From Sedimentisphaerales bacterium (GTDB taxonomy: Bacteria; Planctomycetota; Phycisphaerae; Sedimentisphaerales; Anaerobacaceae), in NCBI GenBank assembly GCA_016936075.1, contig JAFGPS010000023.1, positions 1 to 64,000 of the forward strand: a stretch of 64,000 nt of DNA. The letters run 5' to 3'. Under the pieces are notes generated by a model. The model did not search any database. It was not told the DNA's origin and worked only from the letters and a program-made list of their open reading frames with translations. This document shows positions 31,130 to 54,978 of the stretch, in pieces. The first letter of the stretch is position 1; every line of letters starts with the position of its first letter. The position numbers and the translations under genes were made by a program.

Positions 31130-32245
31130 TTAATTTCCGGAAAAAATAATATTTCTTCCAGTTTGACCAAGCTCAAACAGGTGAATTTTATTCGAATTTA
31201 TATATATTTTTATGGCCTGATTTATTTCATAATCAGCATATGGAGAGGTGCTAAGAATAAATCTGTCTACATTTGGTATCTGAAGGTAAATATCTGTACG
31301 GCTTCCTACATGCTCGATAGACCGAATAACAGCATTGATCGCATTATTTCCCCCGTTTTCATATGGTTTTAAGGAAATATCCTCTGGCCGTATACCTAAA
31401 ATCATTTCTTTTCCGTTGTAATTACTTAGATATTTTTTTAATGAATCCGGTAACGAGATGATATTATCGTCTCTAACAAAGTTTATTTTCTCTTGATCTG
31501 TTCCTACGTTGCCACTAAAGAAATTCATAGGAGGAGTTCCAAAAAAGCCCGCTACATACCTGTTTGCAGGCTTATCATATATTTCCATCGGTTTACCAAT
31601 CTGCTGTATTTTACCATCATACATAACACATATTTGCTCGCCCAGTGTCATTGCCTCGACCTGGTCATGAGTAACATATATAGTTGTGGTCTTTAATTTC
31701 TGATGCAGAGCTTTAATCTCAGCCCGCATTGTCAGCCGCATTTTCGCGTCAAGATTGCTCAATGGCTCATCGAATAAAAATGCGTTTGGTTTACGAACTA
31801 TTGCCTTGCCCAATGCTACCCGCTGGCGTTGTCCACCGGATAAAGAACAAGGTTTGCGGCGAAGAAATTCTTCAATTCCAAGCAAAGCGGCTGTTTCTTT
31901 TATGACTTTCTTTATTTGTTTGCGAGGAGTTTTTCGCATTTTCATGGCAAAAGCCATATTCTGGAAAACCGTCATATGGGGATATAAAGTATAATTCTGA
32001 AATACCATAGCAACATCACGGTCTTTCCCGGAAACGTCATTAGCCAAAGTATCATCTATATAAATATTTCCTGAATCAGGTTGCTCAAGACCGGCTATAA
32101 GCCTCAATGTAGTTGTTTTGCCGCATCCGCTCTGACCTACTATGACCATGAAACAGCTGTCCTGTATATCCAGAGAGAAATCGGATACCGCAGTAATTCC
32201 GCTTTCGTAAATCTTCGTTATATTTTCCAGTAAAATACGAGACAT
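31130..32245 (-). CDS. ABC importer ATPase, MalK/UgpC/CUT1-like
   Basis: VGQSGCGKTTTLRLIAGLEQPDSG, LSGGQRQRVALGKAIVRKPNAFLFDEPLSNLDAKMR, VTHDQVEAMTLG, C-terminal TOBE-like region; start trimmed to MSRILLENITKIY. Confidence 0.92.
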   Translation of the reverse strand: MSRILLENITKIYESGITAVSDFSLDIQDSCFMVIVGQSGCGKTTTLRLIAGLEQPDSGNIYIDDTLANDVSGKDRDVAMVFQNYTLYPHMTVFQNMAFAMKMRKTPRKQIKKVIKETAALLGIEEFLRRKPCSLSGGQRQRVALGKAIVRKPNAFLFDEPLSNLDAKMRLTMRAEIKALHQKLKTTTIYVTHDQVEAMTLGEQICVMYDGKIQQIGKPMEIYDKPANRYVAGFFGTPPMNFFSGNVGTDQEKINFVRDDNIISLPDSLKKYLSNYNGKEMILGIRPEDISLKPYENGGNNAINAVIRSIEHVGSRTDIYLQIPNVDRFILSTSPYADYEINQAIKIYINSNKIHLFELGQTGRNIIFSGN

Positions 32246-32262
32246 AATTAAAACAATCTTTT

Positions 32263-34032
32263 TTAGAATATTTTGTTGCGAATTCGTTTTTTGGTTCGCC
32301 ACAGAAAAATAAGTGCAAGTATTATATACGCAAAGAAGGAAATACCAAAAACTATTAATGTAGTATGAAGAGTTTCGTAACCGCTCGGCCAGTCATATTG
32401 CATTATTCCATTTCTTATACGGAATTGTGTTGTTATAGTACTTATTGCTATAACAATTATCTGGATAAATGGATTGAAGAAAAAACACACTTCAGCTGCA
32501 TCGTGGCCGCCAATGATTTCACCGAAAATACCTAATACCACTGGAATAAGTGCCCATATAAACAAAATGAAGACAAAATTCATAACAACTGCGCTGGTTG
32601 TATGTTTAAAACGAGAACTGAAATACAGACCAGAGCAGCTAATCAAAATAATAAACCATACTAATAATATTACAGTTAACAGGATCGCAATAGGATGGAT
32701 AAATCCAAGAAAATAAAATAAAATGAAATGTCCTACTAATAACGACCAAACTGGTAAACAGCGGCTTATTACTCCGCATAATTTACCATAAACTATCTGC
32801 CTGTCACTTAGTGTTGACGTTAAAAGTAAAAGCCACGAGCTGGATTCTTTTTCTAATGTTATACTCGTTGAAGAAAAAACTGTAGTAATAAGTGTCCCTA
32901 ATACCATAAATATCAGAGAATACAAAACATGAGTTGGTTCATCATCTAAAGCATCTACATGATAAAGGAACCAATATGAATATGTCAATATAGCAAGGAA
33001 TACAATTACACCAATAATACGAAGTATTTTTGTATTCTTTCGTAAAGGCAATATAAGCTCTTTCCAAAGTACAGCCGGACCGATTACACTAATAATTGCA
33101 GAGTTTTTTGCATTATTCTTTCGATAAGTTTTTTTTTGTCTCGAAGAGAATAACTGACCTGCCGCTTGGCGAAGTGCGACTTTGCGAACTAAAATTATTG
33201 ATATAACTACAAACACGAATGCTAATAGCAAGTTAATTAGACAATTTATATAAGGAGATACAAAAAAAGAAAAGAATGCAGCTCGCGGCTCAAGCATCGC
33301 AAGAGTATTAAAAAAGAAAGCGACATAAGGATTTGTATTTATTAAAAGCATCCCGAAAACATCATCAGAACCAATTTTTGTTAGAAAAAATATTGTAGCA
33401 GCTAAAAATGGAATTAATGCAAAAAGACATAAAATTGATAAAATCGTAACAATAATTACAATATGAGCCCTTCGACAGAAAATTGAGTAGAATAGACTTA
33501 TCGAGCTTACAAGTATAACTGTCGTTAATGTAAGGCATAGACTGGATGTAATAAAGCTCCAGGGCACGCCTCCGAAAACTCTTACGATAGCTAATAAAGG
33601 CAGACTGATTGCAAGTAATAAAAACAATTGTAATAGTTTGCTGAACATTTTGCCTATAACTATCTGCATACTTGTTATTGGAGTTGTCATTAACATACCG
33701 AGAGTTTTGTGATATATCTCGTCACTTATAGAATTGCTCAGCATAACAACCGCGATAATCTGTGACGCACAGAACTGGAATACTACAATATAGGTCACTA
33801 TCACTTTACCAGCCTGTGCCAATCGAGAAACATTTAATATTCTTGAACCACGAAAATCTACTACAACAGCCCAAATAAACAGCAAAATAATAAGCATGAG
33901 CAAAATATAAGCGGCACGCAGAACGTAATTTCGCCGCTTCCGGCTCGATACACGAAGCTCTTTGTCAAATACCGGGCCGGTAAGCCAGAAAAAACTTAAA
34001 GTACGTACTATATAATCCAATATCGCAGTCAA
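32263..34032 (-). CDS. ABC-2 type permease, paralogue 4 of 4
   Basis: FWLTGPVFDKELRVSSRKRRNYVLR; SDEIYHKTLGMLMTTPITSMQIVIGKMFSKLLQL. Confidence 0.85.
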   Translation of the reverse strand: MTAILDYIVRTLSFFWLTGPVFDKELRVSSRKRRNYVLRAAYILLMLIILLFIWAVVVDFRGSRILNVSRLAQAGKVIVTYIVVFQFCASQIIAVVMLSNSISDEIYHKTLGMLMTTPITSMQIVIGKMFSKLLQLFLLLAISLPLLAIVRVFGGVPWSFITSSLCLTLTTVILVSSISLFYSIFCRRAHIVIIVTILSILCLFALIPFLAATIFFLTKIGSDDVFGMLLINTNPYVAFFFNTLAMLEPRAAFFSFFVSPYINCLINLLLAFVFVVISIILVRKVALRQAAGQLFSSRQKKTYRKNNAKNSAIISVIGPAVLWKELILPLRKNTKILRIIGVIVFLAILTYSYWFLYHVDALDDEPTHVLYSLIFMVLGTLITTVFSSTSITLEKESSSWLLLLTSTLSDRQIVYGKLCGVISRCLPVWSLLVGHFILFYFLGFIHPIAILLTVILLVWFIILISCSGLYFSSRFKHTTSAVVMNFVFILFIWALIPVVLGIFGEIIGGHDAAEVCFFFNPFIQIIVIAISTITTQFRIRNGIMQYDWPSGYETLHTTLIVFGISFFAYIILALIFLWRTKKRIRNKIF

Positions 34033-34048
34033 TGTTGTTTCCTGTTTA

Positions 34049-37603: not shown

Positions 37604-37615
37604 TTTAAAAAACGT

Positions 37616-39490: not shown

Positions 39491-39599
39491 ATCCAGGCCG
39501 AATTTAGAATATCCGAATTTATATTTATTGATTCCGCTTTCATATTAGTACTGCGTTCAGCGCAGCTTATCGCAGAACACAGCACAATGAACTTTTTTA

Positions 39600-40526
39600 T
39601 TAGTGTACGATTCCTTTTGTTAACTGCAGGAATGCGTCATCGAGTTTAATCTGTTCAGGCTGAATAGCAATAACATCCAAATTCGCGTTAACTAAAGTTC
39701 GTGCGATCAGGCCATCGATATTTTCACCCTCTTTGAAGGATATTGAAATATAGTTTTTATTAGTCTGAACCTGATGTATCTGCGGCAAAGCTGACAATAA
39801 TTCAATTGCTTTTTCCTGGTTATCAGCCACCTGGACACGAACCTTCGTATGAATGCCTAATCTCGGACGAATTTCCTCTATCGTGCCGCTATATACAAGT
39901 TGGCCATGCTCGATAATTCCCACGTGGTCGCATATCTCTTCCAGTTCGCTGAGAATATGGCTGGAAATCATTATTGTCTTTCCCATTCTTTTGAGTTCAC
40001 GCAGCAGTTCCCTGATTTCAATTCTTGCTCTCGGATCGAGTCCGCTTGCCGGTTCATCAAGAATAAGAACTTTCGGGTCATGAATCAGAACTCGCGCAAG
40101 TCCGAGCCGCTGCTGCATACCTCGTGAAAGACTATCAACTGTTGCTGCCTTCTTGGATTGCAGATCAGTTAATTCAAGAACGCCTTCGACGATTGATTTC
40201 CTTTTGGAGCGTTCAATGCTGAAAGCTGCCGCAAAAAATTCAAGGTACTCGAATACTTTCAAGTCATCATAAACACCCATGAAATCGGGCATATAACCTA
40301 TAACCCTGCGAACCTTTTGCCCGTTTCTCGATACATCGAGACCATCAATTATCGCATGGCCGCGTGTAGGTTCCATCAGGGTGACAAGAATACGCATAGT
40401 AGTAGTTTTACCTGCACCATTCGGGCCGATAAATCCGAATATATCACCCTGCTTAATAAATAAATTAAGGTCGTCAACCGCAGTAAGATTGCCGAATACT
40501 TTTGTTAAATGTTTCGTTTCTATCAT
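39600..40526 (-). CDS. ABC-2 type transporter ATP-binding protein
   Basis: FIGPNGAGKTTTMRILVTLMEPTRG, LSRGMQQRLGLARVLIHDPKVLILDEPASGLDPRARIEIRELL; start trimmed to MIETKHLTKVF. Confidence 0.93.
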   Translation of the reverse strand: MIETKHLTKVFGNLTAVDDLNLFIKQGDIFGFIGPNGAGKTTTMRILVTLMEPTRGHAIIDGLDVSRNGQKVRRVIGYMPDFMGVYDDLKVFEYLEFFAAAFSIERSKRKSIVEGVLELTDLQSKKAATVDSLSRGMQQRLGLARVLIHDPKVLILDEPASGLDPRARIEIRELLRELKRMGKTIMISSHILSELEEICDHVGIIEHGQLVYSGTIEEIRPRLGIHTKVRVQVADNQEKAIELLSALPQIHQVQTNKNYISISFKEGENIDGLIARTLVNANLDVIAIQPEQIKLDDAFLQLTKGIVH

Positions 40527-40539
40527 TTCCTGTTCCCTC

Positions 40540-42762
40540 TTAATTCGGAAAAACAACAAGACGTGCCATTTGTATATGTTCTTCACTCACTGAATGTTTT
40601 TTAATTTTAAAAGATACAGGAGCATTATCGTATGTAACGCAGACAATAGCTGCCCCATTGTTGAGATAATTATTCATAGCCTGAGTTCTCTGGAGACTTC
40701 CCTGTGCAAAAAACGCGGCTTCATTTTTGAATTTGCCGGTACTTTGCCCGGAATATTGTGACACATGAGTAAATGTGTTAATATCATTTTCCCATAATCT
40801 AATAGGCTGGACATTTCTCCTGAACTCCTGAATACTATTTGCAGGAACTCCACTAAAATTTATTCCATTCCTATTATCCACCATAACATAGCCGCCGATA
40901 ATAGCAGCGTCTGACTCATTTTTTATGGTAACAATGATTTCATTTCCTTCTATTAATACATCAGCACTGAACGGCATTTTTTCTATCGACGATTCAGTAA
41001 GCATACACTGAATATCCCAAATATTAACAGGTAACGTTTCAGGCAAATTCCCACCATCTTCCTGGGTACAATAGATTCTTCTGCTGCCAATTTCATTGCT
41101 ATAAGAATATAACTGATCCTGCGTTGGAGCTATACCCGACCACCACTGATTTGGCTGGAGGTTCTCAAGCTCATAGCTGTCACTTCGTGATGCGAATAAA
41201 CCACTATACTGAGTCGCCCATACAGTCTTCTCATCTTTAATACCATCAATAACAGAAACTACTCTTAATTGTGTTTTACCGCCGCGCAAATACTGAACAC
41301 CGTAATATGCTCCTATAGTAAATGCAATTATCCAAAACGTACAGGTCAACCATGTTAAAGGAAGACGATCTATATGTTTTAGGAATTTGTAATCAACAGG
41401 ACCAAGTAAAATAGCCAGTGCGCCCAATAATAGAATTACAAACCAGACACTTAAAGGCTTTATCTCCTGGTATAAAAATTCCATAACTTTATTGTTCAAA
41501 GAATATGCACTTCCTATTTGGTAATAATTCCGATTTCTTTGTTGATTTTGCAGTATTGGCTGGCCAAACTGGTTAACGTTTGTACCGGAATCAGGGACAT
41601 TATCAATTCTTCTTTGTGCTAATATTGTATTCTCTACAGATCCTTCCGATTTGATAATAGTCTTAATTAAATTCACCCAAAAACGGGATTTATTTGTATC
41701 CTGAGAATAACTGAAATCTTCCGGATCGAAACCTAATACTCCAATCGTCCCGAAGCCTGCATTTCCGATACCAAATAAATATTGATTTCCCTGGTACAAA
41801 TCACCTTCATAAAGTTTTACATTTGGTTTTGGAACGAGGGGTCTTAGAGTAACAGTTTCTGAACTATTTTCAGACAACTTCCATTCATAAAGCTGTTGCT
41901 GAGAAATATTGACTTGTTTTGTATCTGTATAATCAAAAGGAATTATTTTGGTCAGAGGATTTTCACCCATAGGAGGCTTGCTTCCCAAAACAAGAAGCAT
42001 CTTTCCGCCATTTGTTATCCATTCGCTAATAGCTTTTAATTGCTGCTCTTTTAACTGGTTCCAGTCAGGGTCATAAAGAATAAGCAAATCAAGAGAAACA
42101 AAACCTGTCCAGTCCCATGGAACCATTGCTGCCTGTTTATTTCCGACATATACATTCCCAGGAACTCCTTTATAATAACTGGTAGATTGTTTTTCCAACC
42201 CAAGAAGACCAAATTTGCCAGCACCAATTACTCCTATCAACATATCGAATTCATTAAGTGCCGGGATTTTACCCGGATTCATCATTATATTATAATTGTG
42301 ACTCCATACAGTTTTTCTTCTTCCTGTAGTCCGATCAAGCTTTAGACTGCATATTTGATTTGTATATGCAATCTTCGTCACAAGAGGTATATATTCAGTC
42401 AATTCTGCTGTAAGAGCCAAATCCTGAACCATTATATTCAGTGTATTTAATCCGTCCTGTTGGGATGAAAGTGTTAACTCGCCACCAAAGTGTTGTTCTA
42501 ACGAGTTGTTTATAGTGATTTCTACTGGTGTCCATTCCATTGGCCGAAAATAGCCGCCCCAGCCAAAATACATATCAATATTAAAAACAGATTTATCATT
42601 TGCTATAGCTGAATTACTCAAGACAAGAAGAAATGACAAACATAAAGTGAAAATAATAGCCCTATAAAGATAATTCATAAATAAATCTGGATTTGTTTTT
42701 TTTGCCATAATAATGTTGTCACTATTCCACTCTTTTTTTTGCTTCATATATTTATTGAACAT
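40540..42762 (-). CDS. Membrane protein with secreted GATase/DUF4350-like region
   Basis: Long extracellular beta-rich region, LLLGALAILLGPVDYKFLKHIDRLPLTW TM segment; located between ABC-2 and BatA/vWA genes. Confidence 0.65.
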   Translation of the reverse strand: MFNKYMKQKKEWNSDNIIMAKKTNPDLFMNYLYRAIIFTLCLSFLLVLSNSAIANDKSVFNIDMYFGWGGYFRPMEWTPVEITINNSLEQHFGGELTLSSQQDGLNTLNIMVQDLALTAELTEYIPLVTKIAYTNQICSLKLDRTTGRRKTVWSHNYNIMMNPGKIPALNEFDMLIGVIGAGKFGLLGLEKQSTSYYKGVPGNVYVGNKQAAMVPWDWTGFVSLDLLILYDPDWNQLKEQQLKAISEWITNGGKMLLVLGSKPPMGENPLTKIIPFDYTDTKQVNISQQQLYEWKLSENSSETVTLRPLVPKPNVKLYEGDLYQGNQYLFGIGNAGFGTIGVLGFDPEDFSYSQDTNKSRFWVNLIKTIIKSEGSVENTILAQRRIDNVPDSGTNVNQFGQPILQNQQRNRNYYQIGSAYSLNNKVMEFLYQEIKPLSVWFVILLLGALAILLGPVDYKFLKHIDRLPLTWLTCTFWIIAFTIGAYYGVQYLRGGKTQLRVVSVIDGIKDEKTVWATQYSGLFASRSDSYELENLQPNQWWSGIAPTQDQLYSYSNEIGSRRIYCTQEDGGNLPETLPVNIWDIQCMLTESSIEKMPFSADVLIEGNEIIVTIKNESDAAIIGGYVMVDNRNGINFSGVPANSIQEFRRNVQPIRLWENDINTFTHVSQYSGQSTGKFKNEAAFFAQGSLQRTQAMNNYLNNGAAIVCVTYDNAPVSFKIKKHSVSEEHIQMARLVVFPN

Positions 42763-42791: not shown

Positions 42792-44777
42792 CTAAATCCT
42801 AACTTTCGAATTATATACCAGCCATTCTATACAGGCAAGCAATAATGCAAGTCCGACAAGGAACGGCCATAAAGGTATGTTCGCCCTGCTTATCATTTCG
42901 TCCTGTGCCACGATTGTTTGCGAATTCGACATTACAAGTTCCTTAATCGGTTTGATGTCGCTTTCTTCCGAATCCAAAAGGTTCACCACATAAAATCGTG
43001 GCGTGCTATCTGAAATGCTCAGGTTATACTGGCCGACATGGCTTGTATCAGCAAAACGAATAATACCACTCGGATTTGCCTGCAAAACTTCAGTCTCTTT
43101 ATCCGGCATAGTAACTTTAGCCTCTGTACCGGGAGCGAGGCCTTCTATTACAATCGGCTCTCCGACTTTTAGTTCATTTTTCTGATCCTGAGAAATCTGC
43201 ATTCCAAGATAACTTGTCGCATTATAACAAAACAGGACAAAGCTCGGTTCGAAAGGCCAGTTTGTTTCGAGAATATCGAATCCCACTAAAAGAAAAACAC
43301 TTCCATTTCTCTCTACAATTGCCATCGCTGATGTTTCATTAAACTCGGCAAGCACATCTGAATCACGGGGCAACTCCATCTGATAACATTTAGCAGCAAA
43401 AAGATTCAACAGATTAACATAGTTCAATACAGGATGTTTCTGTCTCCAGTCAATGATAACCTGGTTTTCGATTTGGCCCGGTACATTAACATCAATTCCA
43501 CCCGGAGGCTGACCAAAAACAATATATTTTCCTTTTGGAAGATGATCGTTTATATGGTTATCGAGAACAATAACATCATAAGGATTTTCAATACTCAATG
43601 CGTCTTTGTCTAATTCATCGAATTCTACAGGTGACTGAATATCAAGCTTTGCGAGAGGACACGCTTTTAAAGCTGATTCAAGTGCTGGATTCTCTGAGGT
43701 AACGAGTAAAACAGAAAGTTTTTTAGGAGGTGAAACTATTGCCCATGACGAGTTGTCACATTCTAAGGAATCATCGGAGAGAAGTCTTATTTCGAGCACG
43801 CCCGGCTCTACCTCAGAAAGAGAGAAATTCACTGCAATTTTGCCAGGCTCTTCTTTATTTGTATCAAGGTTCATACTTGATGATGGAACAGATATTGACC
43901 TGATAGCTTTGACATTATTATTAACGCTAAGCTGTAAATCCGCATCGAGTTTTTTGTCTCCAAAATTTGAAATAGATACAAATACTTCTATCTCATCTGG
44001 ATTTTCATAGGACCTCAAAGCCTGCATTGCGGTTATGCCGGTATTTTGGCTGGATTCAACTCCAATTGAGTGATATGTTATTTCATTGTCACTAATGGTT
44101 AAATCAATCAAATCAGTTATTTTACCATCGCTGAAAAGTTCCAGTTTTGCGGGATCCTGCTGGTTAGTATAGTCGGCTTCACCTGTAGGTGATTGCGAAA
44201 AGGCACGGGCAACTATAATTGCTTCGGACAAAAGTGATTTCCCATGCCCTGAAGAAATTGATTCAATTGCATGTATCAACTGTCCCTTGTTAGAGGTGAA
44301 ATTACACATGACTTTTGCATGGTCATCAAAAGCTATTATCATTGTCTGGTCGCTATCATCTTTCAACGAAAGTACAGCTTTTTGCCGCATGGATTCTATA
44401 AATATCTTCGCCTGTTCCTTGGCTATATCGAGTCTGCTTTTCTTGCCTGACGAATCATCATCTACCGTATTCATGCTTGCGGAACGGTCTATCAATATAA
44501 CATGTCTTTGTCCTGAACTTTTTTTCATAGACAAAATCGGCCATGCAAGAGCAAACAATACCGCAAATAACATTAATAACTGAATAAGTAATAATATATT
44601 ATGCCTCAATTTTTGGAAAGGAGCATTTACCTGCATATCGCGGATGGCTCTTTGCCAGAGCAAGGTACTCGAAACAATTTGCTCATGCCGCTTTAGTTTA
44701 AGAAAATATAATAACAGTAAAAGCGGCACTGTTATCAGAGCGGCGTATAATGCAGTTAATGGTGTTAGCCATTGCAT
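42792..44777 (-). CDS. BatA-like N-terminal plus vWA domain membrane protein
   Basis: YFLKLKRHEQIVSSTLLWQRAIRDMQVNAPFQKLRHNILLLIQLL; MIDAS VILIDRSASM. Confidence 0.88.
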   Translation of the reverse strand: MQWLTPLTALYAALITVPLLLLLYFLKLKRHEQIVSSTLLWQRAIRDMQVNAPFQKLRHNILLLIQLLMLFAVLFALAWPILSMKKSSGQRHVILIDRSASMNTVDDDSSGKKSRLDIAKEQAKIFIESMRQKAVLSLKDDSDQTMIIAFDDHAKVMCNFTSNKGQLIHAIESISSGHGKSLLSEAIIVARAFSQSPTGEADYTNQQDPAKLELFSDGKITDLIDLTISDNEITYHSIGVESSQNTGITAMQALRSYENPDEIEVFVSISNFGDKKLDADLQLSVNNNVKAIRSISVPSSSMNLDTNKEEPGKIAVNFSLSEVEPGVLEIRLLSDDSLECDNSSWAIVSPPKKLSVLLVTSENPALESALKACPLAKLDIQSPVEFDELDKDALSIENPYDVIVLDNHINDHLPKGKYIVFGQPPGGIDVNVPGQIENQVIIDWRQKHPVLNYVNLLNLFAAKCYQMELPRDSDVLAEFNETSAMAIVERNGSVFLLVGFDILETNWPFEPSFVLFCYNATSYLGMQISQDQKNELKVGEPIVIEGLAPGTEAKVTMPDKETEVLQANPSGIIRFADTSHVGQYNLSISDSTPRFYVVNLLDSEESDIKPIKELVMSNSQTIVAQDEMISRANIPLWPFLVGLALLLACIEWLVYNSKVRI

Positions 44778-44788
44778 AAATATTTTCC

Positions 44789-45700
44789 TTATCGCAGCAA
44801 GTTAATTCGACGCAGATAATTCAATACGAGAGTCTCAATCGAATCTGAAGACTTCGTAAGCACATAAGCAGCACCCCTGCGGGTACAAAAATCCTTCAAT
44901 TCGTTACAATACGCGTTCAATGTTTTTTTATAATACTTTAACAATGCCCCTGAAACCGTAATCTCAGCAATATCGGAATCTTCGATATCAATTAATTTGA
45001 GTTCGCCTGTAATATCCGGTGAGAGTTCTTTTGGCGAAAGTACCTGTATAACATAAAGGTCATAGTTCCGCCCCATCAGACGACGCAAACCTGAGTCATA
45101 ACCTTCTTTGAACAAAAAATCACTCAAGACTATTGTAATGCCGGAACCAATTCGCCCCGATACAAGCTGCTTGCATGACTTTTCAAAATTTGATAAGCCA
45201 TCGCTTTCAGCAGTCAGAAGAAAATCCGCCATATTATGCAGATAGTTTCGTCCCCGCATATTAGCGAGCTGTCCCTCTATGCCATCAGCGAAGAAACTTA
45301 TCGTCACCCTGTTATTATTCACAAGACTTACATAACCCAGTGCCGCAGTTAATTTCTTTATATAAAGAGCTTTGGATGGATCACCTATACTCATCGAAGA
45401 ACTAAAGTCAGCAACGATATGAACTGTAAGGTCCTGCTCTTCCAGAAAAAGTTTAAGAAACAACTGCTCCAATCGTCCGTAAATATTCCAATCCACAAAC
45501 CTCAGGTCATCACCAGCTACGTATGGGCGATGGTCGGCGAATTCCACGCTCTGTCCCCTTCGCTTTGTGCGGCGTTCGCCGTGAAGCTTGCCCTGTAATA
45601 TCTTCCGGCTCATCACATCGAGAGAATCCAGCCTCGCCATAAACTTTGGATCAAGCAAGTCAGTAAGTCTTTTTTTAGTTGTTGATGTTTTATGGTACAT
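44789..45700 (-). CDS. DUF58 domain protein
   Basis: LHGERRTKRRGQSVEFADHRPYVAGDDLRFVDWNIYGRLEQLFLKLFLEEQDLTVHIVADFSSSMS. Confidence 0.95.
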   Translation of the reverse strand: MYHKTSTTKKRLTDLLDPKFMARLDSLDVMSRKILQGKLHGERRTKRRGQSVEFADHRPYVAGDDLRFVDWNIYGRLEQLFLKLFLEEQDLTVHIVADFSSSMSIGDPSKALYIKKLTAALGYVSLVNNNRVTISFFADGIEGQLANMRGRNYLHNMADFLLTAESDGLSNFEKSCKQLVSGRIGSGITIVLSDFLFKEGYDSGLRRLMGRNYDLYVIQVLSPKELSPDITGELKLIDIEDSDIAEITVSGALLKYYKKTLNAYCNELKDFCTRRGAAYVLTKSSDSIETLVLNYLRRINLLR

Positions 45701-46715
45701 TTAATTGTTGTTCCATCGTTGTTGGTGTATTTTCAAGTATTTGAGCAAGCACATCATCTGTAGTAATCCCTTCTGCCTGGCCTTCGAAATTCAATAGAAC
45801 ACGATGACGCAAAGTAGGCAGCACAGATTCCGAAATGTCACCAAAGCTCACATGATAACGCTCATCGAGCAATGCACGAACTTTGGCTGAAAGTACGAGA
45901 GCCTGAACGCCTCGCGGCGAAGAACCAAAACGAATATACTTATTTGTTACTTCAGCCGCAAATTCTCCCTGTGGATGTGTTGCCAAAACCAGACGTATTG
46001 CATAATCCTGTACATGTTCTGCTATTACAACTCTTCTAACAAGGTTTTGTGCATTAATAATTTCTTCTTTGCCAATAATATTTTGCGCTCTTTCATTATG
46101 CTCTGTTGTAGTTCTGTTAATAATCTCGCCAAGCTCCTTACGATTGCTATACGGCACAATAACTTTAAAGAAAAACCTGTCAAGCTGTGCTTCAGGCAAT
46201 GGGTAAGTTCCTTCCTGTTCAATCGGATTCTGCGTTGCAAGAACAATAAAAGGCTCGGGCAATTTGCGAACCTGTCCGCTGCTTGTGACAGAATGTTCCT
46301 GCATTGCTTCGAGCATAGCTGACTGGGTTTTTGGAGTTGCACGGTTAATTTCATCAGCCAGAATTATCTGCCCGAAAATAGGGCCGGGCTGGAACTCGAA
46401 ACTTCTCCTGCCGCTCGAAGCATCTTCCATAACGATATTAGTTCCGATGATATCGGCGGGCATAAGGTCGGGAGTAAATTGAATACGTCTGAATTCAAGT
46501 GAGAATACATCACTCAATGTTCTTACGAGCAAAGTTTTGCCAAGACCGGGAACACTTTCGAGCAGGACGTGACCGCCGCAGAAAATACTGATAAGAACAT
46601 TATCAACGATTGATTCATGACCAACGATAACTTTTCCGATTTCCTTTCGCAGAGAATCGAACATTTCCCGAAAGTCTTTGCATTGTTCTTCAACTTTTTT
46701 ATCATCTTTCGACAT
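45690..46715 (-). CDS. MoxR family AAA+ ATPase
   Basis: GGHVLLESVPGLGKTLLVRTLSD, GPIFGQIILADEINRATPKTQSAMLEAMQEHSVT, LATQNPIEQEGTYPLPEAQLDRF. Confidence 0.96.
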   Translation of the reverse strand: MSKDDKKVEEQCKDFREMFDSLRKEIGKVIVGHESIVDNVLISIFCGGHVLLESVPGLGKTLLVRTLSDVFSLEFRRIQFTPDLMPADIIGTNIVMEDASSGRRSFEFQPGPIFGQIILADEINRATPKTQSAMLEAMQEHSVTSSGQVRKLPEPFIVLATQNPIEQEGTYPLPEAQLDRFFFKVIVPYSNRKELGEIINRTTTEHNERAQNIIGKEEIINAQNLVRRVVIAEHVQDYAIRLVLATHPQGEFAAEVTNKYIRFGSSPRGVQALVLSAKVRALLDERYHVSFGDISESVLPTLRHRVLLNFEGQAEGITTDDVLAQILENTPTTMEQQLNVP

Positions 46716-46750: not shown

Positions 46751-49699
46751 CTAATTATCTTTTCGATACTCTTCAGATTTTTTCTTGGCTTTGAGGAGTC
46801 TCTGAATATGAGTTGCATCTTCCTGTTTTGCCTTTGTATCAGATTTTGATTCATCTTTCTTCACTTCTGGTTCAGGCGGCTTTTTATCCTGCACTTTCGA
46901 GATAGGCAGGTCTCCCTTAAATTTCTCGTCGGGGACATATCTTCTTGATGCAGCCGCTTCCTTTGAACGTATCTTAAACTGATTCTGAACCTGCTTTCGT
47001 TTCAATTTCAACTTATCGAGAGTTGTTTCTGCTTTGTGTTCCTTCTTCCTGGAAACAACTTGAACTATTCTTCGTGACATTGCCTTGAAATCAAGAGCAA
47101 GTCTGCGAACGGCAACATCAAGAAGAAACAGAGCAAGCCAGATAAGCATTAATGGGCGAATCAAAGGTAATTGAGTTTCAGGAAATTTTAATCCTGTATA
47201 GTCAAATAAATTAGCCTGATTTGGATCAGAACTTAACATCCGCCCACTTGTCATGTCACTTACCTGTGTCAGTAAAGGCATGTTATCAGATAGATCACGA
47301 AATTCAGGAGCGAATGGAATTGTAACTGCGGTATCGGTAATATATGTTTTATCAGGCTCACCAGCTTTTTTGTACGTCATATTTACAATATAACTTCCGG
47401 AACCTTTTGCATCAAAAGATGCACTATATTGACCGGGACCAATCTGTACGAGTTTAATATCTTCTACGACAACATCGGGCGATATTACGCGTCCATCTAT
47501 ATTCGAAAATTGAATAAATTTTCCATCATCATCAATGGCTTCCACATTAACAGTAACCTTTTTATCCTGAACGTCAGTTGTAACTTCGCAATCCGAAGAT
47601 TGAGATGGTTTTCCTGCCCATCTTACTACCTGCTCCCAGAAAGTTTCATAATTGCTCCATCCGAGCCAGTTTGACGCCCATCGACTATCAATTGAAGATG
47701 TAAATGCAGCACATCTACCCATGCCGGACTGGCATATTGCAAGTATCGGATCATTTTCCTGACTATTTAGAATAATCTGGTTTAAGCCGCCTTTGGGACC
47801 AGTAATTATATAACCATCAAGATCTGGGAAATTTGAAGAAAGACCTTTTGTTATTTCACTGAGCGAATAAACCAATTGAGGAGTGAAGGTGTGTTCATTA
47901 ATTAAACTGCGTCTTACAACCTGTGCTTCTTTGATAAATATTTGCGGTAATTCATTAGGATTCCTTACATCATATGCACGGCCTCCGGTAGCATTTGCAA
48001 CTCGTTGTAATCGTGCGAAATCACTTGCCTGATGCGGAAATATCCCAACGGTAGTAACGGTAATCCCTGATTCTACACATGCTTTTAAAAGCGCATCTGA
48101 AGGATCCTGAGGATCTCCATCAGTTATTACTATAACATGTTTTTGGGCTGCATCACATGCTTTGAGTTCTTTATAAGCCTGCTGCAAATGAGCATGGAGA
48201 CTTTGCATATCACCCATTTGCATCATATTAATAGCAGAAAGTACTTCTGATTTATCTCCCACTTCTGATAAAGGGTACACCCAGTCATCAATTCCGGCCC
48301 CCTGCCAGTTCTGCGCCAGGATACCAACTAAATCCAGGCGGCTTAATGTTTGAATAGCTGAAGAAGCAACCAGTTTGCCCCAGTAATTTCCCTGCGGCAT
48401 CTCACATGCATGCATAATCAGCACGAGAGCGCCTTTGGGTAATTGTTTCTTCTGAGGAGGGTCTAAGTCGACCGGTAAAATTTCAGCTACAGGTGAACCA
48501 ATCCAACCTCCAGCACCGAAGGAACTCGGTCCTCCCGTCATTACCAGCCCGCCGCCAAGGTCATTGACATAACTGCAAATTATTTCCTGCTGTGCAAACG
48601 AAAAATTACTGCAATCAGTGTTTACCATAATTATAGCATCAGTATCCATCAGGTTAGCCAAACTATCCGGAAATTGAGACGCCAACATATAACGCGCATC
48701 AATGTTGGACTCGGAAAGAGCTTTCAGCATAGATTCGGCGGATTGTGTATCGGAATCTACAACGAGAACATGACCTGGCCCGGTTACTTGAGTAATAGAA
48801 CTTGCTACGTTATTCTGGACTATTTTGTCCTGTGTATTATCATCAGGTATATAAGTTGCTTCAAATTCATGAATACCACTTGTCCCAACGGGTACAGATA
48901 CAGTTACAACATTTGTTCCCGGTTCTAATTCTACAGGTAAAGTTACTTCATCCGAATCCGGGGCAAGATCCATCTGCTTATCATTTAGGTTTAATTGTAA
49001 TTTACCTTTTGAATAAGATGTACTACTAAGAATGAATCGCAGAGAAACAGTCTGGTTACTTCTTGCCTTCGATGGGGCAACAAGGCGTTTAAAAACAACT
49101 TCATTTTTATACTGATAATGTATCGGGAGAATATCAATCGGTATATTATTGGCCGCGGCTGTCAGTGCGGCTGCTTTCAAATCTCCAGCAGTTTCATTAC
49201 CTTCGGTAACGAGTAATATTCTTACCGCTGTATTTGGCGGCGCAATCGCCAGAGCCATTTCAATGCCGGCTTCTAATTTCGTTTGTCCCCCATTCAGTGT
49301 TGTATTTCTTTGTTTAATATCAACATCTGTTGTGGGTAATTTTGAAATACTGGCTGTTTCAGCGATATCAACAACAGCCACCTGATTAGGCTGGACACTT
49401 TCTCCTAAAGCATTAGCTAAATATTCGAGACTTTTCTCCTGAAGTTCCTGTGAAATAGACTGGCTGCGGTCAAGAACAATAATTACAGTAAGATTTTTAC
49501 TTTTTCGTGTCAGATTTGGTCTTGCAAGCAATATTACCAATAATAGCACGACAATACAGCGCAGGATAATGGCACACCAGCGTCTAACAGGGCTTAAGCT
49601 GTTAAGATTTCGCATAGCCAGCCAAATTATAGGCACTAATAAAATTGAACCTAATAACCACCACGGCTGACCAAAATAAAAGCCATAATTATACATCAT
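46751..49699 (-). CDS. Large membrane-anchored vWA protein with GATase-like middle region
   Basis: MIDAS VIIVLDRSQSIS; GHVLVVDSDTQSAESMLKALSESNI...GGGLVMTGGPSSFGAGGW; second vWA-like HVIVITDGDPQDPS. Confidence 0.88.
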   Translation of the reverse strand: MMYNYGFYFGQPWWLLGSILLVPIIWLAMRNLNSLSPVRRWCAIILRCIVVLLLVILLARPNLTRKSKNLTVIIVLDRSQSISQELQEKSLEYLANALGESVQPNQVAVVDIAETASISKLPTTDVDIKQRNTTLNGGQTKLEAGIEMALAIAPPNTAVRILLVTEGNETAGDLKAAALTAAANNIPIDILPIHYQYKNEVVFKRLVAPSKARSNQTVSLRFILSSTSYSKGKLQLNLNDKQMDLAPDSDEVTLPVELEPGTNVVTVSVPVGTSGIHEFEATYIPDDNTQDKIVQNNVASSITQVTGPGHVLVVDSDTQSAESMLKALSESNIDARYMLASQFPDSLANLMDTDAIIMVNTDCSNFSFAQQEIICSYVNDLGGGLVMTGGPSSFGAGGWIGSPVAEILPVDLDPPQKKQLPKGALVLIMHACEMPQGNYWGKLVASSAIQTLSRLDLVGILAQNWQGAGIDDWVYPLSEVGDKSEVLSAINMMQMGDMQSLHAHLQQAYKELKACDAAQKHVIVITDGDPQDPSDALLKACVESGITVTTVGIFPHQASDFARLQRVANATGGRAYDVRNPNELPQIFIKEAQVVRRSLINEHTFTPQLVYSLSEITKGLSSNFPDLDGYIITGPKGGLNQIILNSQENDPILAICQSGMGRCAAFTSSIDSRWASNWLGWSNYETFWEQVVRWAGKPSQSSDCEVTTDVQDKKVTVNVEAIDDDGKFIQFSNIDGRVISPDVVVEDIKLVQIGPGQYSASFDAKGSGSYIVNMTYKKAGEPDKTYITDTAVTIPFAPEFRDLSDNMPLLTQVSDMTSGRMLSSDPNQANLFDYTGLKFPETQLPLIRPLMLIWLALFLLDVAVRRLALDFKAMSRRIVQVVSRKKEHKAETTLDKLKLKRKQVQNQFKIRSKEAAASRRYVPDEKFKGDLPISKVQDKKPPEPEVKKDESKSDTKAKQEDATHIQRLLKAKKKSEEYRKDN

Positions 49700-52212
49700 A
49701 ATTGCCAGACCTGAATTTGATTATTTCCTGAGTCCACTACATAAAAGTTACCATTTTTATCGACAACAACTCCCCAGGGATAAGCTAACTCACCTGGTTG
49801 TCGTCCTGCTTTACCATATAATCCTACACTTTGTCCCGCCGGACTGAATAATTGTATCCTGTTATTACCATTTTCGCAAACAACTAATGTCCCGTCGTCC
49901 AAAATATCCAGATCATAAGGATAACGAAGTTCGCCAATACCTGTACCTACAGTACCAAAATATCCATTTAAAACTCCATTAAAATCGTAAACAGCTATTC
50001 TGTGATTACACGCATCTGCGACATAAAGGAGTTTCCTTGATTTATCTACACACAAAGCAGAAGGTCTGGAGAACTGCCCTTCTCCAGTTCCAGAACTGCC
50101 AAACGCATATAAAAACTCACCCTGCTCATTAAAGACACTGATTCTGTCATTTCCGCCATATTCACCAACGAATATTCTTCCATCTCCTGAAAATGCAACA
50201 TCGGTAGGATAAATGAAACATCCATCATCGGTTCCGAATTTTCCCCACTGTCTAATTATTTCACCTTCAGGAGATAAAACCATTACTCTATAATAATGAG
50301 TATCTGCAACATAAAGATTGCCATCAGGACCAAAGGACATTCCTGTAGGTTTACCCGATTCGGTCTGAGGCATTTCAAATATGTTTATAAATTTGCCTGA
50401 TGAGGAAAACTGCTGAATTCTGCCAGTTTTATCAATAACATAAACTGAGCCGTCATTTGAAATATCTATTGCTCTCGGGTAGGTGAATTCCCCTACTCCC
50501 TGGCCTGATGTTCCGAATTCTTCGATTACCTTTGGGTTTTTCGTAAATGAATAATCATCATCGCATCCAGTTAGAGAAAATGTACATATGCAGAAAATTA
50601 AAGCATAAGTCATCCATCGCAAGCGTAACAATCTAAATAATGAAACCAAAATAAGAGACATTAAACCAAAAATGCCAATTAGTATAAGACAGGAAGCAAT
50701 TACCTGCTGGTCACGAGCATAATGCATCTGATTTAGAAGGCGTTGAGAAAAATTCGGTACACCTGCAGGAAGCAATATCATAGTCGCAGATATTTCAGTC
50801 ATACTGAACATACTAATTAAAATAAAACTACCCACCCAAAGAGGCCATACATGCGGTAAATGAATATATCTGAAAATCTGAAATTGTGAAGCTCCATCAA
50901 CATGAGCCATTTCAGAAAGTATTTGTCTTTGAGAATGTCGAGTCAGGACAAGCAGAATTAAGGCAACTCCTGCAAAACGACATGCAAGCCCGATAGAAAC
51001 AATGAACCAGCCTTCCCTTATTGATGTTGGTAAATGCAGTACGGCCATAATCCTGATGATAGAAACCGCAATAATAGAAGCTGGAAGCAGCATTATAAGA
51101 AAAATTGTGCTGCATATTACTAAAGGCAGGATGTGAAATCGAGAATAAGATAATATACGACTGAGAATATTATTGTTTTTTAAATTTTGTTTACTGTTGT
51201 TGAGCGAATAAGCACTATAAGCGATAAAATAAGACAGGACGGCCGCCAAAAAGGCGGTAGTCAGTGACCATGTTATATCATCAAAATGTAAAATTAAAAA
51301 CTGCTGGAATGGTACCATATCCGATACGTTATAAAGGAGAAGAGCAATTGGAATCAAAAGGGATATTCCAAATAATAATATAAGTACTCCCCATCTCCAT
51401 CTTTGCGATTTAACTTCAATTGTTTCAGTTTCGTTTGGAGATGAAACCCACTTTTGGGAACTTTTACTTAATATAATTGCAAGAAACAAAGCCAATATCG
51501 CAACGGGCCATGATGCTCTTGCCAATAAGGCTTCAGAGCCGGTCAAGTCGAATAGAACCGCCAATTCCGTCCCAATCGTTTTTATACCAGCAAGATGATA
51601 GGTTGTAAATTCTGAAAGTGATAAAACAAAACATACACTAAAAGTCAACAATATTGGTTTTACGAGTAAAGGTAACGTTACATTTTTAAATATCCCGAAT
51701 TTATTTGAGTCGAGAGACGCACTATCCCATATCTGCCGATCAATATTTTTCCATCCCTGTCCCAGTAACAACGCAGCCAAGGGCCAGTACCACATAATTA
51801 AAACCGCTGTTGTGCTGAATGTCCCTATGAATTTTGCTACTTCAGTTTTGTCAGATAAATATACGCCTAACGATGTGGTCGGACTCAGGAGCAGCCACCA
51901 CGCATAAAACAAAACATAACGAGGCAAAACAATAGGCATTAACAAAAACAATAGCAATAAATCCTTATGAGCAGAACAAGTTCCAAGCAATCGGCCTGGA
52001 ATCCATCCTAACAAAACTGACATAGACGCTATAATCGCTGATAAAAACAAAGAGTGTATAAGCGAAGAATATATATCAACGCTTACTTCAGATTTTGCGT
52101 CAGTAGTTATTGCTGATATAAAAAGTACGAGCAGTGGAAGTAGGACCACGATAATCCATACTGATATGGAGACTGCTCTTGTTACTTTTATAAATATACT
52201 TTCATTTTTCAA
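49696..52212 (-). CDS. ABC importer permease (FbpB-like, two BPD-type halves) fused to a C-terminal NHL-repeat propeller with internal lipobox
   Basis: Polytopic N-terminal ~530 aa; then MTYALIFCICTFSLTGCDDD and six NHL-like repeats to the C-terminus, all in one frame. Confidence 0.85.
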   Translation of the reverse strand: MKNESIFIKVTRAVSISVWIIVVLLPLLVLFISAITTDAKSEVSVDIYSSLIHSLFLSAIIASMSVLLGWIPGRLLGTCSAHKDLLLLFLLMPIVLPRYVLFYAWWLLLSPTTSLGVYLSDKTEVAKFIGTFSTTAVLIMWYWPLAALLLGQGWKNIDRQIWDSASLDSNKFGIFKNVTLPLLVKPILLTFSVCFVLSLSEFTTYHLAGIKTIGTELAVLFDLTGSEALLARASWPVAILALFLAIILSKSSQKWVSSPNETETIEVKSQRWRWGVLILLFGISLLIPIALLLYNVSDMVPFQQFLILHFDDITWSLTTAFLAAVLSYFIAYSAYSLNNSKQNLKNNNILSRILSYSRFHILPLVICSTIFLIMLLPASIIAVSIIRIMAVLHLPTSIREGWFIVSIGLACRFAGVALILLVLTRHSQRQILSEMAHVDGASQFQIFRYIHLPHVWPLWVGSFILISMFSMTEISATMILLPAGVPNFSQRLLNQMHYARDQQVIASCLILIGIFGLMSLILVSLFRLLRLRWMTYALIFCICTFSLTGCDDDYSFTKNPKVIEEFGTSGQGVGEFTYPRAIDISNDGSVYVIDKTGRIQQFSSSGKFINIFEMPQTESGKPTGMSFGPDGNLYVADTHYYRVMVLSPEGEIIRQWGKFGTDDGCFIYPTDVAFSGDGRIFVGEYGGNDRISVFNEQGEFLYAFGSSGTGEGQFSRPSALCVDKSRKLLYVADACNHRIAVYDFNGVLNGYFGTVGTGIGELRYPYDLDILDDGTLVVCENGNNRIQLFSPAGQSVGLYGKAGRQPGELAYPWGVVVDKNGNFYVVDSGNNQIQVWQL

Positions 52213-53254
52213 GAATCTTTTTCGCTCTCTCTATTGATGCAGGTAGCAAATCAGCTATTTTTTCATACTCGATATCAAGTTGCTCTTCTATCGCATATTT
52301 GCTGTACTTTTTAACAAGTGAAGAACGAATCGGGCTGTTATGAGAATCACTTTCAGCAAGTAAAATTTCAAGTTCTTCGCTAAGAATAAAATCCAATAAT
52401 TTTTTAGCCGTTTCCGGGTGAGGTGCATTTTTTATTAACGCCGCTGTATTTGGAATAGCAAGCGGTCCCTTATCGCCCTGATTGAGAAAATTCAATGCAA
52501 CCGGATTGCCATTTCTCTGTGCGGCATATACATCGTCAGTATCGGTAAAACAAATATCAGCCTGACCAGTACTTACCCATCTAACCGCCGTGCTGTTTCC
52601 GGAAACCAGTTCAATTTCATTAGCTTTTAAACCTTTTAGAATTTCTATCACTTTATCTTCGCCGTAATGTGCGAACCAGCTTGCCACATCTCCGCCAGTC
52701 GTTCCGAAAGAAGGAGTTGCCATTGCGATACGGCCTTTCCACTTGCTATCGAGACAATCTTCCAGGGACTTCGGAGCTTCCTGAGCGGAAATTTTATTTG
52801 TGTTATAAGCAATAACTCTCACACGTAGTCCGAAAGCATGCCACCTATTCAATTTATCCTTATATAATTGCGGCCAGTCTTTTGTCACTTCGCTTTCATA
52901 AGGAGCTAACAAGCCTTCATTTGCAAGCTGTATCGTATAAAATATTTCTCCAGACCAGAAAACATCAGCAACTGGGTTCGATGATTCTGCTCTTAATTTG
53001 TTTACAAGCCCCACTGTTTTGCTTGCTTCTGTATCGTAGCGATCACGTACTTTTATACCGGTTTGCTCTTCGAATCGCCTTATTATAGGCTCGGCAAACT
53101 CCTGGTCTACCGAACAATACAGAACAACTTCATTACTTGCGGAATTTTGCTTTTTGCATGAGGTTAATATTAAAAAAAGTGATAAACAGCAAAGCGTATA
53201 TAATATAAATGATAAGCTTTGCTGTACCGTTGTTTTTTTCCTCATTTCCTGCAT
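52202..53254 (-). CDS. Fe(III)-type ABC transporter substrate-binding lipoprotein (FbpA/AfuA-like)
   Basis: Lipobox LILTSCKK; NEVVLYCSVDQEFAEPIIRRFEEQTGIKV, DVFWSGE, TQADICFTDTDDV-like region. Confidence 0.88.
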   Translation of the reverse strand: MQEMRKKTTVQQSLSFILYTLCCLSLFLILTSCKKQNSASNEVVLYCSVDQEFAEPIIRRFEEQTGIKVRDRYDTEASKTVGLVNKLRAESSNPVADVFWSGEIFYTIQLANEGLLAPYESEVTKDWPQLYKDKLNRWHAFGLRVRVIAYNTNKISAQEAPKSLEDCLDSKWKGRIAMATPSFGTTGGDVASWFAHYGEDKVIEILKGLKANEIELVSGNSTAVRWVSTGQADICFTDTDDVYAAQRNGNPVALNFLNQGDKGPLAIPNTAALIKNAPHPETAKKLLDFILSEELEILLAESDSHNSPIRSSLVKKYSKYAIEEQLDIEYEKIADLLPASIERAKKILEK

Positions 53255-53280: not shown

Positions 53281-54978
53281 TTACTCTTCTACTTCCGAAT
53301 CACCTGTAGCCGGGAAGTTTTGTTCAATATTACCAAAATATGATTTTATCGCTTCTTCATATCTTCGTGGAATTTCATTTTCACTAATTGCTTCGGCCGC
53401 GTTGTCACGTCCAGTCTGAATTACCTCTGATAAATCACGTTTGGTTTCGCCTTCAACTTGAATATCTTTAAAATACCAGCTTGCGATTATTGGTCCCTGC
53501 TGAGGTGGTCTGTTAATAATATCTTTTTTTGTGTCATAATCCCCCTCATCATCTGTAGGTCTTGTTCCTGTGCCCATTCCGGGACCGCCAGTACCATTAC
53601 CAACACGACTTGTGTCACCTTCATCCCATGGCCCCTGACCATTACCAAGCCCCTGTCCCATTCCCTGTCCGAGAGAGCCGATAGCTCTTGCAATTTCATT
53701 CAGACTTGCTTCGGTGAGCATCATTTGCTGCTGTAGTGCTTCAAGGCCATCCAACTGCTCGATTGCATCAGATAATTCATCCCCAGTTGACATACCTGCT
53801 CCACCTCCCATGCCGCTTCCGGCCATAGCGTTTGCCATTTGTGAAAGTTTATCACGTGCCATCTTCGAAGCGGCGGCTTTATTCATTAGGTCCTCGATTT
53901 GGTCAGAACTCAAACCCTGCTTTTGTAAAGCTTCCTTAAGCTCTTTTTTACCCATTTTTGCAAGTTCTTTGTCTAATCCCATCGATTCGAGCTCTTTCTC
54001 GAATTCGTCGCTTTGTTTGGCTAAGTCTTCAAGAGCCTTGGATAAAGCCTGCATTTGTTCAGATAATTTCTTTTTCTGCTCATCTGAGAGTTTATCTTCT
54101 TTTATTTCATTCTGCATTTGCTTGAGCAATGCAGAAGCCTGGCCGAAATTTCCTTTTGCCAGTTCCATTCTTAATTTCGAAGAAAAAGAATCGGGAGAAC
54201 CTTTTAACTGCTTGAGCATTTGCTGCATCATTTTCATCGAAGCAAGTGTTTCACTTTTTTGCATATTCTTTACTTTTTCGGAAAGGTCACCCAATTGGCG
54301 TATGGCATCCCTTTTAACCTCTTCCGGTTTTGCACCCTCGGGTAACTGGCTTAATTTGCCGAGAGCTTCAGCAATATTGGGATCATTTATCTTTTTCATT
54401 TGAATTTTGACTGAGGCAGTAGCTTCTTTTACCTTCGACTCTGCATCTTCTTTCTGTTTTGCAGCCTGATTCTCTTTATTTCTCCTATTTTGGATTCCAA
54501 GAAGGTCTTTTTGCGGCATAAACGCAAATAATAACACAACAATCAGCCATAATGTACTCGTATAAGCCCAGCCCTTAGAAAGCTTTATGGGAAAATGACC
54601 ATGTAAATTCATGGATTCGGCCTTGTTTAAAGCTTCTTTGCAAGCCGCCTCGGAAAATGCGTCATGGTTATCCGAAATTTTTAAAGCTGTACTGAAACGC
54701 TCTTTGAGCCCCATTCTTTGGTCTAATAGAAGTGAAATTTGCAGCTTACTGGGCTGCTTATAAAACCAGATGGCAAAAATAGCGGTCGCTACAAAGAGTA
54801 AAAATCCAATCAAAGTGTTTGAATTTATTACCTCCAAAGCCAGGAGTTTTTCAGTCATAACCGCAATTATCGCTATAACTCCTGCTATAATAAGGATTTG
54901 CCCCGCGTATTTCAGCAGAAGGTTTATACTGCACCTAACCCAAACCGCATGAATGTTTTTTTCAAAAATTTTAAGCAT
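53281..54978 (-). CDS. Membrane protein with long coiled coil and Gly/Met-rich low-complexity region
   Basis: Two N-terminal TM segments; Lys/Glu/Gln-rich coiled coil; GSGMGGGAGMSTG and GQGMGQGLGNGQGPWDEGD. Confidence 0.75.
   Translation of the reverse strand: MLKIFEKNIHAVWVRCSINLLLKYAGQILIIAGVIAIIAVMTEKLLALEVINSNTLIGFLLFVATAIFAIWFYKQPSKLQISLLLDQRMGLKERFSTALKISDNHDAFSEAACKEALNKAESMNLHGHFPIKLSKGWAYTSTLWLIVVLLFAFMPQKDLLGIQNRRNKENQAAKQKEDAESKVKEATASVKIQMKKINDPNIAEALGKLSQLPEGAKPEEVKRDAIRQLGDLSEKVKNMQKSETLASMKMMQQMLKQLKGSPDSFSSKLRMELAKGNFGQASALLKQMQNEIKEDKLSDEQKKKLSEQMQALSKALEDLAKQSDEFEKELESMGLDKELAKMGKKELKEALQKQGLSSDQIEDLMNKAAASKMARDKLSQMANAMAGSGMGGGAGMSTGDELSDAIEQLDGLEALQQQMMLTEASLNEIARAIGSLGQGMGQGLGNGQGPWDEGDTSRVGNGTGGPGMGTGTRPTDDEGDYDTKKDIINRPPQQGPIIASWYFKDIQVEGETKRDLSEVIQTGRDNAAEAISENEIPRRYEEAIKSYFGNIEQNFPATGDSEVEE

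Follow-up and report, generated by a model that had tools for sequence, protein, structure and literature searches.

An ABC permease fused to an NHL propeller across an internal lipobox: a putative bacterial lipoprotein polyprotein conserved in Phycisphaerae

In a 64,000-nucleotide stretch of Sedimentisphaerales bacterium DNA (assembly GCA_016936075.1, contig JAFGPS010000023.1, positions 1 to 64,000; hereafter the window), one minus-strand gene at 49696..52212 encodes an FbpB-type double ATP-binding cassette (ABC) permease, an internal lipoprotein signal and a six-bladed NHL beta-propeller, which raises the question of what becomes of a lipoprotein signal placed in the middle of an unbroken chain. 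We propose that the product is probably a polyprotein: Lgt would attach lipid at the internal signal and Lsp would cut there, so that permease and lipidated propeller become separate proteins. From sequence we infer both processing steps, the ratio of the two products and the proteins with which each half works.

The open reading frame begins with TTG and runs for 838 aa without interruption. Its permease half (residues 1-527; 50632..52212, minus strand) has twelve hydrophobic segments in a hydropathy profile averaged across 44 homologues, a Pfam BPD_transp_1 match at residues 352-529 and two EAA-like coupling loops, seen by eye as the motif EMAHVDGAS...IHLP in the second half of the permease and a weaker version in the first. 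The residues that link permease and propeller read RLLRLRW, a hydrophobic stretch and LTGC, and constitute the internal signal (50563..50631, minus strand): an RLRW-type n-region predicted to be cytoplasmic, an h-region of ~17 residues and an LTG-C lipobox ending in Cys550, encoded by TGC at 50565-50563, with an internal ATG for Met534 (50613-50611) 16 codons ahead. Residues 551-838 (49699..50562, minus strand) form the propeller, predicted to be extracytoplasmic, and Pfam places NHL repeats in this C-terminal half. An earlier sequence-only reading had reported a single 838-aa frame, an internal Met codon at 50613 and an LTGC cysteine codon at 50565-50563, and these coordinates are correct.

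The AlphaFold2 model of the fused protein has a mean predicted local distance difference test score of 87.6, with both halves modelled well. Foldseek aligns its permease half to Thermus thermophilus FbpB (9j4r_A) over 525 columns, with a target-normalised TM-score of 0.79 and an E value of 3e-13, and the window protein shows the fold of FbpB, both permease halves lying in a single chain. The propeller is built of 24 strands in six blades and matches NHL domains, the nearest solved structures being those of animal NHL domains. The permease-NHL architecture first read from the letters is thus borne out by Pfam, Foldseek and AlphaFold2.

It is at the junction that conservation is most telling. 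In an alignment of 44 fusions with 27-74% identity to the window protein, Cys550 is invariant (44/44, entropy 0), the only cysteine among 38 invariant columns, and Gly549 is kept in 42 of the 44. No part of the protein varies more than the hydrophobic stretch before Cys550 and the linker behind it, which have average entropies of 2.56 bits for residues 521-549 and 2.81 bits for residues 551-566, vs means of 2.05 bits in the permease and 1.37 bits in the propeller. A strict lipobox pattern fits 24/44 junction cysteines vs 50/490 other cysteines of the same proteins (p=1.5e-11), odds about 10 times higher at the junction. The geometry is likewise that of a lipoprotein signal: the cysteine follows the last charged residue at a median distance of 17 (interquartile range 16-18) in fusions, 17 in stand-alone lipoproteins of the family and 15 in genes split from a permease, and the n-region of the fusions carries about 3 K/R and 0.09 D/E. 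Loop-charge alternation across the 44 homologues places residues 526-533 inside and 551-566 outside; permease loop charges fit a topology with both termini cytoplasmic, from which the next hydrophobic stretch would send the propeller outward. Genes for both Lsp and Lgt are found in the genome of the window organism. The internal site therefore combines a lipobox with an invariant cysteine, a positive n-region and a short h-region, as the sequence-only reading had recognised, and it lies at residues ~527-550 of an unbroken frame rather than at the N-terminus of the translated protein. Judged by its conservation, the lipobox is an element retained by selection in the fused protein.

How widely is the fusion shared? 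Among 99 relatives, 17-20 carry the same single frame at ~48-74% identity to the window protein, and a class-wide search of 397 genomes (cut-off E<=1e-40) gave a match in 191, counting both fused and separate propeller genes. There are 53 non-redundant fused homologues across Phycisphaerae, each in one open frame; the named records with the family come from Sedimentisphaerales plus other Phycisphaerae, and outside this class the propeller mostly has a gene to itself. On these sequences the fusion is genuine, old and class-wide, and the recent fusion that had initially been considered is ruled out by its class-wide spread. There is next to no chance that we are looking at an assembly or sequencing error or at a decaying fusion in this genome alone: the window does come from a draft assembly of 217 contigs, but dozens of assemblies made independently, one of them a single-contig genome (G240, L099), have the same frame intact at 27-74% identity, and they exclude both a missing stop and an assembly error.

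The two halves also occur elsewhere as separate proteins, so that the window gene holds two proteins in one frame with a signal between them. In L046, L094, L095, L101, L106, L107 and L109, permease and lipoprotein share a frame and are parted by one TGA, TAG or TAA; in L111, L113 and L122 they lie close together or overlap in different frames. A propeller-family tree of 86 sequences after duplicate removal comprises 54 fused propellers (L128, whose permease half scores under the profile threshold, is included by eye), 19 that directly follow a separate permease gene and 13 with no permease next to them in the available sequence, counts that are not frequencies since the split cases were hand-picked. 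Parsimony on this tree demands a minimum of 6 changes between fused and adjacent-split states, and well-supported branches force 5 changes of the fused label when stand-alone rows are included. The approximately unbiased (AU) test rejects a tree constrained to keep all fusions in one clade (p=0.0023), and with it a single origin of the fusion; the AU and parsimony results leave the direction of individual changes unsettled. Fused and split states are therefore both real and have replaced one another repeatedly, and the suspicion that all relatives might encode two ordinary proteins and the window frame be an artefact fails.

Two further observations concern the frame itself. In L083/L054 (G046) and L086/L131 (G696) a frame change splits the two permease halves while the second stays fused to the propeller; L074, a close relative of G046, has the fusion intact, and the broken cases are either frameshift errors or true splits of the double permease. 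At the L129 junction, the loop before the internal signal has repeated GGAAAAA-type blocks followed by their complement, which is rich in T, as though the permease had become joined to the lipoprotein through a small inverted repeat.

Could translation instead, or in addition, begin inside the frame, for example at Met534, and so yield a separate lipoprotein? The sequence-only reading had raised initiation at 50613, and the window gene does offer an ATG 16 codons ahead of the cysteine. Met534 is not conserved, however, its column being mostly Leu, Ser or Ala in homologues; ATG makes up 3.3% in the plausible junction region vs 2.7% elsewhere in the permease (p=0.23), with no enrichment, and the GTG share of Val codons and the TTG share of Leu codons are unchanged at the junction. 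L086 and L115 lack all three start codons (ATG, GTG and TTG) in the plausible range, and ATG is missing there in 19/53 fusions. No conserved Shine-Dalgarno site was found at the junction across the fusions, and a comparison of Shine-Dalgarno energies is uninformative alone, GC-rich genomes yielding spurious matches. Many Planctomycetota genes have no Shine-Dalgarno site, which makes its lack weak evidence; real start signals are nonetheless detectable, because the split genes L046, L111 and L122 display a start and a Shine-Dalgarno-like site at the equivalent place. Full-frame translation would in any case still produce the fusion. We regard internal initiation in general as quite improbable, and for 50613 itself, with no conserved start codon, enrichment or conserved Shine-Dalgarno site, we set it aside as unsupported.

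We thus return to processing of the full-length chain. In the mechanism that we favour, the ribosome would make one chain whose twelve transmembrane segments form an FbpB-type permease in the membrane, its two ends on the cytoplasmic side, and the positive loop and next hydrophobic stretch would act as an internal lipoprotein signal exporting the propeller. Lgt would lipidate Cys550 and Lsp (signal peptidase II) would cut before it. The permease would keep the signal helix, its 13th segment, and would be matched 1:1 by a lipid-anchored propeller; without the Lsp cut, the propeller would carry its lipid anchor but stay tethered. Because fused and split genes would yield the same mature products, the state may switch easily while the cysteine stays fixed. 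The permease would then serve the importer encoded in the same cluster, with its substrate-binding protein (SBP) and UgpC-type ATPase, and the propeller the cluster's MoxR/DUF58/BatA-type vWA genes.

The cluster itself is conserved. It opens with p565, a 565-aa membrane protein (53281..54978), followed by the importer's FbpA/PhnS-type SBP, itself a lipoprotein (52202..53254), whose gene the 5' end of the fused gene overlaps by 11 nt. The stop of the fused gene in turn overlaps, as ATGA, the start of the gene for vWA982, a 982-aa vWA/GATase1-like membrane protein (46751..49699), after which come a MoxR AAA+ ATPase (45690..46715), a DUF58 protein (44789..45700) and a BatA-type vWA protein (42792..44777), all on the minus strand. 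The order p565, SBP, fusion, vWA/GATase, MoxR, DUF58, BatA-type vWA, 740-aa membrane protein, NatA-type ATPase and ABC-2 permeases is conserved across the taxonomic order. At its 3' end (31130-40586 in the window) the cluster contains the NatA-type ATPase, a tandem set of several ABC-2 permease paralogues of ~590 aa each, and a UgpC/MalK/PotA-type ABC ATPase (31130..32302, minus strand). The UgpC-type ATPase is the last gene of the cluster in the window as in four relatives and lies nearby in another, and in relatives too the SBP gene is directly upstream of the permease. The importer thus has an SBP gene and an ATPase gene to go with its permease, and the UgpC-type ATPase is its likely energiser, a partnership that we infer. 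The SBP aligns to FbpA proteins and has TDTDDV where solved ferric-binding relatives have a Tyr pair (NNYY); because these tyrosines are missing, iron is doubtful as the substrate, which is probably not free ferric iron. A second SBP-permease pair, with no propeller, lies just upstream of p565 in L077 (1237-3933), in tandem with the fused importer.

Three genomes, G041 (L047), G174 (L120) and G217 (L126), lack SBP and permease at the position between p565 and propeller; the propeller is there an ordinary lipoprotein gene with its own lipobox, followed by vWA982, and L114 has the same order. Judging by these four, the SBP-permease pair acts as a cassette that is either present or absent at this position, with the rest of the cluster conserved. 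G041 and G174 look like losses of the importer half in which the lipoprotein survived, because both nest among fused relatives on the tree (the support for G041 is not starred), and such importer-less genomes are the strongest natural evidence that the propeller may work unattached.

They bear directly on the possibility that the chain, lipidated or not, stays intact as a permanent tether, in which the importer would use its attached propeller outside the cytoplasm for sensing or docking. The single continuous frame has long been conserved in the main clade and AlphaFold2 models both halves well, as such a tether would lead one to expect. Furthermore, Asp or Glu follows the lipobox cysteine at +2 in 32/53 fusions; in E. 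coli, Asp at this position keeps lipoproteins in the inner membrane, so that by the E. coli rule these residues would favour inner-membrane retention. Against the tether, a never-processed site would leave the invariant lipobox cysteine without evident use, and repeated switching between fused and separate states, together with propellers kept without the importer half, argues that attachment is unneeded. We therefore hold a permanent tether to be unlikely, and the propeller sensor of the importer's own envisaged by the sequence-only reading is not favoured, since genomes without the importer still have the propeller in their MoxR/vWA cluster.

Several points also weigh against the proposed polyprotein. 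The [G/A/S]C junction, present in 53/53 non-redundant fusions with mostly L/V/I/A at -3, is partly circular, the junction cysteine having been chosen as the last [G/A/S]C, and the 44-sequence alignment serves as the independent check; only 24/44 junctions match the strict lipobox pattern. AlphaFold2 renders residues 501-546 as one long helix with dropping confidence and no hairpin, lengthening transmembrane segment 12 to a 46-residue helix with a confidence of ~50 at the lipobox, and the model does not settle the cleavage question either way. Lsp cutting behind twelve transmembrane segments is not established for this family, and the open-access literature searched holds no description of it. 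On balance, processing into permease and lipidated propeller remains the probable fate of the fused chain. For the broader proposal, that of a class-wide, repeatedly evolved polyprotein in which signal peptidase II frees a lipoprotein from the C-terminus of a twelve-segment ABC permease, setting importer and MoxR/vWA envelope machine in a fixed 1:1 ratio through internal lipoboxes overlooked by N-terminal signal predictors, we put the chances at about even.

If true, this would be a rare kind of bacterial polyprotein, and lipoprotein processing would not be limited to N-terminal signals, Lgt and Lsp acting behind twelve transmembrane segments; predictors run on protein N-termini would overlook the whole lipoprotein class. 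The fused, one-stop and fully separate relatives would then constitute a natural experiment in bacterial gene fusion and splitting with the mature products unchanged, and an ABC importer would be tied to the widespread and poorly understood MoxR/DUF58/vWA cluster.

Each component, whether permease, lipoprotein, NHL propeller or MoxR/vWA cluster, is already known singly; no internal lipoboxes, permease-NHL fusions or bacterial lipoprotein polyproteins are described in the open-access literature searched. The ternary conflict systems of planctomycetes (eLife 2020, PMC7159879) also encode MoxR, vWA and beta-propeller together. Unlike in those systems, the window propeller is predicted to be exported and the cluster, with DUF58 and a BatA-type vWA, resembles a Bat operon; Pfam assigns its vWA proteins GATase1-like or BatA domains and no propeller. 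Membership in a conflict system is rejected, as PADLOC gave no hit and the propeller ternary definition (PMC7159879) does not fit.

The importer half finds its counterpart in Thermus thermophilus FbpBC (PDB 9j4r), which shares the permease fold, the two permease halves per chain and the FbpA-type SBP gene directly upstream; relative to an FbpB-type permease, the window protein adds the C-terminal internal lipoprotein signal and NHL propeller, and its SBP has TDTDDV, not NNYY. The propeller half has its own in the stand-alone NHL-propeller lipoproteins of Planctomycetota, which belong to the same family, have an N-terminal lipobox and are found across the phylum, but are separate genes with their own start and, as far as seen, mostly have no adjoining importer permease outside Phycisphaerae. 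In transporters of the OpuA and GlnP types, permease and SBP are fused and the added domain is a substrate receptor that stays tethered; like the window protein they join an ABC permease to an extracytoplasmic domain, whereas in the window protein that domain is a propeller set off by a lipobox, and the SBP is encoded by a gene of its own. FbcH of Bradyrhizobium, a fused cytochrome b/c1 precursor, sets a precedent for cleavage of a membrane polyprotein at an internal signal: the ordinary signal peptidase splits it into two mature proteins, one of them cytochrome c1. It likewise places an internal signal sequence between a polytopic membrane protein and an exported one, yet where FbcH has an ordinary signal peptidase site, the window protein, with unrelated partner proteins, has a lipobox at which Lgt and Lsp would act.
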